Virus record (IMG/VR): IMGVR_UViG_3300038306_000030
Coordinates: 1-37,973 of that record
From: a virus
DNA: 37,973 nt
Reading direction: 5' to 3' (one strand)
Part shown: piece by piece, positions 13,749 to 16,448 of the stretch
Numbering within the stretch: position 1 is the first letter of the stretch
Layout: each line of letters opens with the position of its first letter
Made by a program: the position numbers and the translations under genes
Notes under the pieces: generated by a model
What the model was told of the DNA's origin: nothing
The model's input: only the letters and a program-made list of their open reading frames with translations
The model's database searches: none

Positions 13749-14061
13749 TTTAAAGCCACGTTTGATTCAACTGCCCGACGTATTAACTTACCTGGGCGTT
13801 AAAAAGCCCTTCTTTGACCAACGGTTAAGAAATCGATTGACCGAGGTTAAACTAGGGTATAGAACAATTGCTTTTGAAAAGGATGAGGTAGATCGTTTAA
13901 TTGATTCCATCAAAAAGGGAGAAACATCATGTCAAACAAATTGCCAGCAGGGCTACAGTATAAGAACGGAAGATACAAAGTTGACAAACGATACAAGCCA
14001 GCCCCAGGCTACCAGTCTGTCCGAATACAAGTCACTCTTGGGGAAACCTCCAAAACTGTAG
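13735..14061 (+). CDS. Excisionase / AlpA-like DNA-binding protein
   Basis: The most likely start is ATG 13735, overlapping the end of the SSB gene; the reading frame is open further upstream. Residues 1-60 include LIQLPDVLTYLGVKKPFFDQ and YRTIAFEKDEVDRLIDSIK, a winged or MerR-type helix-turn-helix like AlpA and phage excisionases. The last 45 residues are read out of frame with the integrase start and may be an incidental tail. The position immediately before integrase supports an Xis role. Confidence 0.65.
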   Translation: MSRSSLKPRLIQLPDVLTYLGVKKPFFDQRLRNRLTEVKLGYRTIAFEKDEVDRLIDSIKKGETSCQTNCQQGYSIRTEDTKLTNDTSQPQATSLSEYKSLLGKPPKL

Positions 14062-15107
14062 CTGTACAGCGTTACAATGATTTGATGACGGCTGAGTACA
14101 ATCGTCAAGTCAACGGTCATGCGAGTTCACCCAAGCAGTTTTGGACTTGGCATCAAGGGGTATTGGCATACCTGAAGGAAAAAAAGATTCTTAAGACCAG
14201 CGATACGATGCGTTATTTTAACGTACTGGATCGCTACATTCCTGCCAATATGCCACTCAATGATATCTGCAATGATACCTTTGAGAAGTTGCGTGATGAT
14301 TCAGCGAGTAAAGGCTTGCATGAGAATCGCAGAACAAAGGGGAACAAACAGTCTGCTACGAATCGATATATTCAAGTTGCCAGAGCCGTTTTATATTTCT
14401 GTAAAACGAAAGGCACGAATGATAATCGCTGGGTACAGCAAGACCCTAATTTAAGAACGCATGATGAGGAAGCAGAAAAGAGAATTCCGTGGGTATTAAA
14501 TCACGAAGAAGAAATCCGTTTGCTCGATGCGTTGCCTGATCACTTGGCAGATATTGCCAAATTTATTTTACATACATCTGTAAGGTCTGGCGAAGCACTT
14601 AATTTGAAATGGAAGCAATTGCATTCCATGCCAGACATTGGCAGCTTCTTTTTAATTCCTGCCAGTGAGCATAAAAATAAGGAAGCAAAGCCTGTTTACC
14701 TAAACGCTGTGGCAGAAGCAATCATTGCCAAGTGTCGTGGCAAGCATGAGGAATATGTTTTTACTTACAAAGGGAATCCGATTAAAAAAATGTCACGCAC
14801 CGCATGGCCCAACGCAATGCAACGGGCGGGGCTTTGGGATACATCATCTGAAGCATTGGCACATGCTACAAATCAAAGGGCGCATTACCCAATACCTCAT
14901 GATCTAAGGAAGACATGCAACACCAGGCTCAAGCATCTGGGGATTCCTTTGGGAACTCGCCAGATGATACTAGGGCATAAGTCAGGGCATATCACTGACG
15001 ATGTGTACACTGTGGCGACCTTAGAGCCTTTTAAGACTGCTTTAGATCAACTCGTTGAAAAGGTTGAGCAAGTTGAAAAATTAACTTTACTTCGAGCGCT
15101 AAAATAA
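13929..15107 (+). CDS. Tyrosine recombinase (phage integrase)
   Basis: A 392-residue protein with AAAGGGAG before ATG 13929. The catalytic set is complete: R219 (TSVRSGEALNL), lysine around 252-254, H324-x-x-R327 (HDLRKT), H350 (LGHKSG) and Y360 (DDVYTVA). The N-terminal 180 residues hold the arm- and core-binding regions. attP lies 75 bases downstream. It performs site-specific integration into, and with Xis excision from, a host tRNA-Pro gene. The length is normal and no residue is missing. Confidence 0.92.
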   Translation: MSNKLPAGLQYKNGRYKVDKRYKPAPGYQSVRIQVTLGETSKTVAVQRYNDLMTAEYNRQVNGHASSPKQFWTWHQGVLAYLKEKKILKTSDTMRYFNVLDRYIPANMPLNDICNDTFEKLRDDSASKGLHENRRTKGNKQSATNRYIQVARAVLYFCKTKGTNDNRWVQQDPNLRTHDEEAEKRIPWVLNHEEEIRLLDALPDHLADIAKFILHTSVRSGEALNLKWKQLHSMPDIGSFFLIPASEHKNKEAKPVYLNAVAEAIIAKCRGKHEEYVFTYKGNPIKKMSRTAWPNAMQRAGLWDTSSEALAHATNQRAHYPIPHDLRKTCNTRLKHLGIPLGTRQMILGHKSGHITDDVYTVATLEPFKTALDQLVEKVEQVEKLTLLRALK

Positions 15108-15181: not shown

Positions 15182-15226
15182 TGGTCGGGACGAGAGGATT
15201 TGAACCTCCGACCACTCGACCCCCAG
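15182..15226 (-). other. attP core: 3' half of tRNA-Pro(GGG)
   Basis: Read on the minus strand, these 45 bases form tRNA positions 32-76. They give loop CTGGGGG with T33, anticodon GGG and G37, a T arm GGAGG-TTCAAAT-CCTCT, the acceptor strand CGTCCCG, A73 and CCA. Upstream of position 32 the anticodon stem no longer pairs, so this is not a whole tRNA. It is the tRNA-derived identity block used for integration. The T arm and variable region resemble those of E. coli tRNA-Pro(GGG). Crossover probably occurs at or near the anticodon loop. Confidence 0.85.
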
Positions 15227-15320: not shown

Positions 15321-15348
15321 GCCACTGGAATTCTACTAAAGGAGGAGA

Positions 15349-16434
15349 ATGATGTGGCTATACATCCCAAGAGAATATTGTCCTTGTTCGCCGGAATTGC
15401 TGGACTCGATCTCGGAATTCGGCTTGTTTTTCCAGAATCTAGAACTGTCTGTTTCGTTGAGCGGGAAAGCTACGCAGCGTCCGTACTCGTGGCGAGGATG
15501 GAAGACAAGACCCTGGATGAAGCTCCTGTCTGGAGTGACGTTACAACCTTCGACGGCAGCAAGTGGAATGGAGTTGTGGATACAGTCGCTTTTGGCTTCC
15601 CGTGCCAAGACCTCTCAGTCGCAGGCAAGCGCAAGGGAATCAAGGAAGGGACACGATCAGGGCTGTTCTTTGAAGCCTGCCGAATTATTCGCCAAATACG
15701 ACCAAGGTATCTTTTTATCGAAAACGTCACAGGACTCCTTTCTAACAAGTTCATGTCAGTCGTACTCGGAGAACTTTCCGAAATGGGGTTCGATGCACAG
15801 TGGGGAGTGTTTTCGGCAAGAGATGTGGGTAGCACCCATCTTAGAAAAAGAGTCTTTATCTTGGCCTACGCCAAACACAAGTGATCAACACAATCCGAAT
15901 ATGTCGGACAACCACGATGTAAAAAAAAGTTATCTGAGAGGGGTGGCTGCATCATGGCCTACGCCACGCATGAATGATTTTAAGGGACATTGTACAGACG
16001 CTACTACAAGAAAGGATGGCAAATGTCGGAACGATCAATTACAGAACGCAGTTATCCATACTGGCCCTTCGGCCCCGGTGAAACAGAACAATGGGAGCGA
16101 CTCCTCAAAGAGCGCCCCGATCTCGCCCCAGCCGTTGAAAAAGGCGACTTGGGCAACTCCAGTAAGGCCAGCACAAAAAGAGTCGGAAACATCACTTGGC
16201 AGATGGAGAAAAGAGAGAGCGAGTTACGGCAAGGAGCTTCAGACGCAGGCAACGGAATTAACGATGAACTTGCCAAAGCGGAGGCTCAATCCAAAATTTG
16301 TCGAACACCTGATGGGGATGCCCCCTGGCTGGAGCTTGCCAATACCTATCGATCAGAACGTCTTCAAGCGCTGGGAAACGGAGTCTGCCCGCTTACTGCG
16401 GCTCTTGCATTCTCGGTCTTATGGGAACGAATGA
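15349..16434 (+). CDS. Methyltransferase-associated overlapping ORF (WPTP / LNPKFVE type)
   Basis: This frame is open for 361 codons across both methyltransferase parts. From about residue 140 it shows a recognisable pattern: SWPTPNTSD, SWPTPRMND and ATPVRP repeats, then LNPKFVEHLMGMPPGW. I recall similar proteins overlapping Dcm genes in many phages. The last motif resembles cytosine methyltransferase motif IX (R-E-x-x-R-L-x-G-F-P), which the zero-frame products lack. The first 110 residues mirror the Dcm frame and may not be translated, so the true start is unknown and probably internal. Confidence 0.6.
   Translation: MMWLYIPREYCPCSPELLDSISEFGLFFQNLELSVSLSGKATQRPYSWRGWKTRPWMKLLSGVTLQPSTAASGMELWIQSLLASRAKTSQSQASARESRKGHDQGCSLKPAELFAKYDQGIFLSKTSQDSFLTSSCQSYSENFPKWGSMHSGECFRQEMWVAPILEKESLSWPTPNTSDQHNPNMSDNHDVKKSYLRGVAASWPTPRMNDFKGHCTDATTRKDGKCRNDQLQNAVIHTGPSAPVKQNNGSDSSKSAPISPQPLKKATWATPVRPAQKESETSLGRWRKERASYGKELQTQATELTMNLPKRRLNPKFVEHLMGMPPGWSLPIPIDQNVFKRWETESARLLRLLHSRSYGNE
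15354..15884 (+). CDS. Cytosine-C5 DNA methyltransferase, motifs I-VIII (N-terminal part)
   Basis: GTG 15354 is preceded by GGAGG eight bases away. The 176 residues contain motif I LFAGIAGLDLG (11-21), motif IV GFPCQ with catalytic C84, motif VI IENV (123-126) and motif VIII RKRVF (164-168). They then stop at TGA 15882. Two more in-frame stops follow before the same frame reopens at 16023 with motif X. Target-recognition and motif IX regions are absent from this product. Either the gene is broken or it is one subunit of a split enzyme. The methyltransferase would protect phage DNA from restriction. Confidence 0.85.
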   Translation: MAIHPKRILSLFAGIAGLDLGIRLVFPESRTVCFVERESYAASVLVARMEDKTLDEAPVWSDVTTFDGSKWNGVVDTVAFGFPCQDLSVAGKRKGIKEGTRSGLFFEACRIIRQIRPRYLFIENVTGLLSNKFMSVVLGELSEMGFDAQWGVFSARDVGSTHLRKRVFILAYAKHK

Positions 16435-16448
16435 AGGAGAACGAATGA
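16023..16448 (+). CDS. Cytosine-C5 methyltransferase, C-terminal part with motif X
   Basis: ATG 16023 has AAAGGA six bases upstream, so independent translation is plausible. The 141 residues begin with YPYWPFGPGETEQWERLLKE and RPDLAPAVE, typical of the C-terminal region of phage Dcm proteins. They end with motif X (GNGVCPLTAALAF, residues 118-130). It is in the same frame as the N-terminal part but separated by stops. It overlaps the next start by 4 bases (ATGA). It could be the second subunit of a split enzyme, comparable in principle to M.AquI or M.EcoHK31I. Confidence 0.7.
   Translation: MSERSITERSYPYWPFGPGETEQWERLLKERPDLAPAVEKGDLGNSSKASTKRVGNITWQMEKRESELRQGASDAGNGINDELAKAEAQSKICRTPDGDAPWLELANTYRSERLQALGNGVCPLTAALAFSVLWERMKENE

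Follow-up and report, generated by a model that had tools for sequence, protein, structure and literature searches.

In the two-polypeptide cytosine-5 DNA methyltransferase (C5-MTase) M.EcoHK31I the second reading frame is nested in the first gene, and the motif X segment of C5-MTases folds back onto the catalytic domain. M.EcoHK31I (recognition sequence YGGCCR) carries motif IX on its smaller subunit, with the target-recognition domain (TRD) predicted in the larger one, and both natural and artificially split C5-MTases are active (PMC3404938). Nested pairs are also found in phages, for example in Paenibacillus phage Likha (gp51/gp52), Acidovorax phage Alfacinha1, Synechococcus phage Ssp-JY39 and Acinetobacter phage ABMM1, the Likha pair being already annotated as such in GenBank (345 aa, with the second frame at +1). 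Mycobacterium phage Alma (gp83/gp82) represents a third form, in which motifs I-VIII are followed by TRD, IX and X together in the +1 frame. The overlap, two-subunit C5-MTases and phage methyltransferases are therefore already known, and the new part of the locus described here is the fission of alpha, the frame-A protein; our search of open-licence papers found no earlier three-piece C5-MTase or alpha fission.

The locus lies on the + strand of a marine phage record of 37,973 bases, which was analysed as a whole and is referred to as the window, and it comprises three ORFs in two frames (Table 1). As the original prediction had it, frame A encodes motifs I-VIII, runs into stops and reopens at an ATG with its own ribosome-binding site and motif X, an arrangement confirmed by direct reading and by the PF00145 match described below, and a second frame (frame B, at +1) is open from 15349 to 16434 as one 361-aa ORF. 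Frame B is a single ORF without stop from 15340, its first ATGs being those at 15349 and 15352; it overprints motifs I-VIII and then encodes a variable, putative target-recognition region (which up to 16022 is readable in frame B alone) and motif IX, the C-terminus consisting of LNPKFVEHLMGMPPGW, at the place expected for motif IX, plus a tail. What the prediction had not included is that the B and A-N start codons overlap and have one AGGAGG in common. Relatives, even distant phages, conserve the first residues of B, 'MWLYIP', and the stop codon of A-C overlaps the ATG of the next gene (ATGA, 16445-16448), as it also does in the related viral contigs L003 and L004. Within the scanned part of the window ORFs, a look for the cognate restriction endonuclease gene of a Type II system showed, next to the locus, an integrase as well as a dATP/dGTP diphosphohydrolase N-terminal domain. 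A stretch at 15184-15226 (- strand), between the integrase (13929-15107, PF00589) and the methyltransferase, resembles the 3' part of a tRNA gene and is likely attP.

Table 1. Features of the three-ORF methyltransferase locus, in coordinates of the window.
Feature	Frame	Position (strand)	Description
Shine-Dalgarno of B and A-N		15340..15345 (+)	AGGAGG, read directly; spacing 6 nt to B ATG 15352 and 8 nt to A GTG 15354
B	+1	15352..16434 (+)	360 aa (361 from ATG 15349); stop TGA 16432-16434
A-N	A	15354..15884 (+)	176 aa, GTG start, TGA 15882-15884; C5-MTase motifs I-VIII (FAGIAGLD, PCQ, ENV, HLRKR); SAM-binding catalytic domain without TRD, IX and X
Variable region of B between VIII and IX	B	15862..16278 (+)	three W-x-T-P modules: WPTPNTSD, WPTPRMND, WATPVRP
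Stop-bearing gap	A	15882..15983 (+)	TGA 15882-15884, TGA 15975-15977, TAA 15981-15983
Shine-Dalgarno of A-C		16012..16016 (+)	AAGGA (within AAAGGA), inside the B coding sequence; 6-nt spacer; duplex -7.2 kcal/mol
A-C	A, reopened	16023..16448 (+)	141 aa from ATG 16023; YWPFGP...RPDLAPA plus motif X (RSERLQALGNGVCPL)
Motif IX	B	16282..16332 (+)	RLNPKFVEHLMGMPPGW

Profile searches, which the original prediction had suggested for each product, matched A-N to PF00145 (E 6e-38, profile positions 2-163 of 324) and TIGR00675 (E 4e-32), and B to PHROG 1008, 'DNA methyltransferase' (E 8e-23), and also to phrog_27243. A-N contains the catalytic and SAM-binding motifs of a C5-MTase (I, IV with PCQ, VI with ENV, and VIII), and its structural model (pLDDT 87) matches M.HhaI (E 3e-13) and M.HaeIII (E 1e-12) in Foldseek, while the PHROG 1008 match places frame B in an existing phage family. 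When A-N, B and A-C of the window are read in DNA order, the joined sequence matches PF00145 over positions 2-315 of 324 with 148.5 bits, compared to 130.5 bits for A-N alone and 136.2 bits when the middle is taken from the third frame (frame C), in support of the earlier suggestion that the end of B resembles the missing motif IX. The joined pieces of L003 gave 147.6 bits over 2-313, and those of L002 matched in two stretches with 134.6 bits versus 124.8 bits for L002 A-N. The nearly full-length match of the joined pieces indicates that the motif order is canonical in the DNA (I-VIII, TRD, IX, X) with the frame changing A-B-A, motifs IX and X each residing on a separate polypeptide. Modelled alone, B is mostly disordered or of low confidence (pLDDT 55) and confident only in a C-terminal part over motif IX, as would be expected if B folds on its partner; a structure search with this model returned no PDB match, and neither did a PDB profile search with B.

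We asked how many stops are expected in one frame when the codons of the overlapping frame are permuted and that frame is kept. With frame A of the window kept, 4.2 stops are expected in frame B over motifs I-VIII and none is present (zero-stop P = 0.005). Across 248 distinct loci from viral contigs, phages and bacterial genomes (defined by motif IX at +1 and motif X in frame A, those obtained with frame B as seed being enriched for the overlap), B over I-VIII contains 45 stops versus 559 expected, whereas the third frame, used as control, contains 1477 versus 1448 expected. Alpha is likewise depleted of stops between VIII and IX once the loci named as split in this test are set aside: the remaining 241 contain 23 versus 830 expected, and 233 of them have none. 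This avoidance of stops in both frames indicates that the standard phage form is a pair of overlapping proteins that are both kept open, the M.EcoHK31I architecture. Of the 80 loci obtained with frame A alone as seed, about 50 have motif IX at +1 and several of the others are truncated. A genome scan with the close alignment A6 gave no loci, and one with alignment A2 gave a set of 80. The amino-acid identity of B over I-VIII is hardly above the level forced by frame A, so that only openness, not sequence, is demonstrated there. Taken with the openness of the frame, this suggests that B must be translated through I-VIII, or from near the common start, and that its sequence there is loosely constrained.

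Seen against these forms, the comparison with M.EcoHK31I made in the original prediction is apt in that motif IX lies on a second polypeptide whose frame is nested at +1, with I-VIII and X in frame A; what the prediction did not know is that an overlapping pair of ORFs is the norm in phages, only the break in alpha being unusual. Unlike in M.EcoHK31I, stops divide the alpha of the window into two ORFs, and a single alpha with I-VIII and X is found neither there nor in the five relatives described below. Moreover, the TRD of M.EcoHK31I is predicted in alpha, whereas frame A of the window is stop-filled from VIII to X and the variable region is readable in the open frame B only. The nested phage pairs have the same +1 overlap and a beta of the same motif IX-bearing family, and Alfacinha1 and Ssp-JY39 the same overlapping starts, but their alpha reads through motif X without a break. 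M.AquI and Alma resemble the window in that the first polypeptide ends after VIII and, in Alma, in that the second polypeptide is in the +1 frame; in both, however, the second polypeptide carries IX as well as X, whereas in the window IX is in B and X in a third ORF, in frame A.

The three-ORF layout recurs in five further viral contigs, with different stop positions and with frame-A identities to the window over A-N of 85% (L002), 78% (L003), 66% (L004) and 59% (L172 and L186). These relatives contain 3-28 frame-A stops between VIII and X (3 in the window) and an open B throughout, the middle of which measures 71 to 305 aa, and all six genomes retain the catalytic motifs and motif X in intact, conserved form. 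Between VIII and IX, the stops in frame A of the split relatives amount to 10, 3, 28, 14 and 20 versus 10.7, 3.7, 23.4, 13.2 and 19.5 expected, and the stop-filled middle of their frame A thus behaves as unconstrained; the same test gave 2 stops versus 8.3 expected in the window, a low count because the tested stretch takes in most of the motif-X ORF of the window. In a quick tree of alpha (with SH-aLRT support only), the window and its five relatives form one starred clade. A second split clade (L100, L105, L300, L303 and L307, from viral contigs and alphaproteobacterial MAGs) resembles the window in having frame-A stops between VIII and X, an open B and a retained motif-X piece with a conserved ATG, but it is a separate starred clade with weaker start signals before A-C, and the openness of A-C is not significant there. 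Since the two split groups stand apart among intact members, two changes are needed, and the tree indicates that the fission of alpha has two independent origins. The split set excludes five loci that resemble copies in decay or with frames disordered by indels: L189, L191 and L193 have motif IX and A in one frame, and L192 and L197 have stops in B. In L214 (1901-3300), motifs I-VI, TRD and IX are in one frame and VIII and X in another, which could be due to an indel or represent yet another type of split.

Several lines of evidence suggest that A-C is a gene. It is stop-free in all six genomes of the first split clade, although 4.1-6.3 stops are expected when B is kept and its codons are permuted (zero-stop P from <0.0005 to 0.0055, thus at most 0.006 in each; in the window none versus 6.3 expected, P < 0.0005). 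Its amino-acid identity is above that forced by B (for example 0.76 versus 0.64 and 0.83 versus 0.73), a difference that simulations with B and its changes held fixed place at p ≤ 0.008 for five of the six pairs and at 0.07 for the remaining one. An ATG with a Shine-Dalgarno sequence directly precedes YWPxGP in all six genomes (p = 0.0015 for five tested jointly), the sequence being weak in L003 and the signal significant for the set only. A tblastn search with A-C in phages gave no match.

Frame A being unreadable between VIII and the motif-X ORF, the predicted target-recognition region must lie in frame B, not in alpha. The number of W-x-T-P modules in the B middle ranges from 0 to 9 across the family and tracks the length of the region (r 0.79). 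In L172 (2009-3361) and L186 (1811-3361) the flanks of B are near-identical, whereas the middles differ in the number (5 versus 7) and kind of modules, and this likeness in flanks and unlikeness in modules suggests module exchange in the recognition region. It is possible, though we hold this view only tentatively, that B acts as an independent specificity subunit, assembled from W-x-T-P modules and open to exchange, with a role like that of HsdS in Type I systems, and that splitting alpha lifts the dual-coding constraint on the recognition region such that modules may be gained or swapped freely, with possibly several targets per enzyme. An insert is seen in the viral contig L208 (IMGVR 3300039216_000224), where a LAGLIDADG-like sequence (PF00961 E 7e-4, below the Pfam cut-off) occupies frame B inside the methyltransferase at about 1500-1970, with frame A open across it too; an out-of-frame HNH insert in phage ShiLan (PMC11855218) can be compared to it.

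Together, these features lead us to propose that the locus probably encodes one cytosine-5 DNA methyltransferase made of three separately initiated polypeptides. A-N would bind SAM and hold the catalytic Cys (motifs I-VIII), B would contribute target recognition and motif IX, and A-C would close the catalytic domain by supplying the motif X segment, the three assembling into one enzyme. Such a three-piece mechanism is plausible, as the fragments of artificially split M.HhaI, M.SssI and other enzymes complement one another (PMC3404938). By methylating phage DNA, the enzyme would probably serve to protect it from host restriction. We envisage that the ancestor had the usual phage form, in which an alpha running through I-VIII, a filler and X was overlapped by beta (B). 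The filler, the frame-A stretch over the recognition region of B, would have gained stops in the split clade, and translation would have restarted before motif X, whereby alpha became two proteins.

It is unlikely that A-N and B suffice for an active two-piece enzyme, with A-C as a by-product that is retained on other grounds. Conservation is highest in B and A-N, and natural two-piece enzymes exist (PMC3404938), but motif X is absent from both of these polypeptides, whereas A-C retains it, is conserved beyond what B forces, and is open and preceded by a start signal in six genomes; moreover, Alma, another case of an alpha that ends after VIII, has X on the second protein. We consider it quite improbable that programmed frameshifting fuses A-N to B, and perhaps back to A, into one chain. 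The pieces do follow the order of a single-chain enzyme and, once joined, match PF00145 over nearly its full length, but the position of the A-N stop differs among the relatives, no shared slippery site was seen by eye around these stops, B has its own conserved start and A-C its own ATG and Shine-Dalgarno sequence, and alpha of the usual relatives simply continues in frame A.

The original prediction had left a choice between an enzyme of several polypeptides and a methyltransferase gene in decay, overlapped by a partner (B) that is retained for some other function. The stops in frame A speak for decay, and real decay does occur in the family: L378 (1500-2261, the E. coli PCP07014 prophage) is a genuine nested-pair pseudogene. 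There, however, the stop, in the motif VI-VII region, breaks both frames in a conserved region, whereas in the split clade stops occur at the unconstrained rate in the middle only, the segment that is filler in relatives, while in the window and the five further viral genomes the whole of B and both flanks of A, with the catalytic motifs and motif X, have stayed intact and conserved. Decay is thus very unlikely and was rejected on the six genomes and the stop statistics, which favours the multi-polypeptide alternative. Sequencing or assembly errors might have created the stops, the window being a metagenomic virus record, but six records each have their own stops, L172 and L186 are near-identical in the flanks and different in the middle, and a second, separate clade is likewise split; this explanation, rejected on the same grounds, is extremely improbable.

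If the three pieces are translated and assembled as proposed, this would be a natural three-polypeptide C5-MTase. Naturally separate recognition subunits may be useful for targeted methylation, for which split methyltransferases already serve. Two-frame coding over about 1 kb is routine in phage methyltransferases, for which public records usually give a single ORF, sometimes in the wrong frame, or a hypothetical protein. The split clade would then amount to a natural experiment in which alpha is freed from dual coding and the unconstrained stretch reveals the frame of target recognition, frame B.
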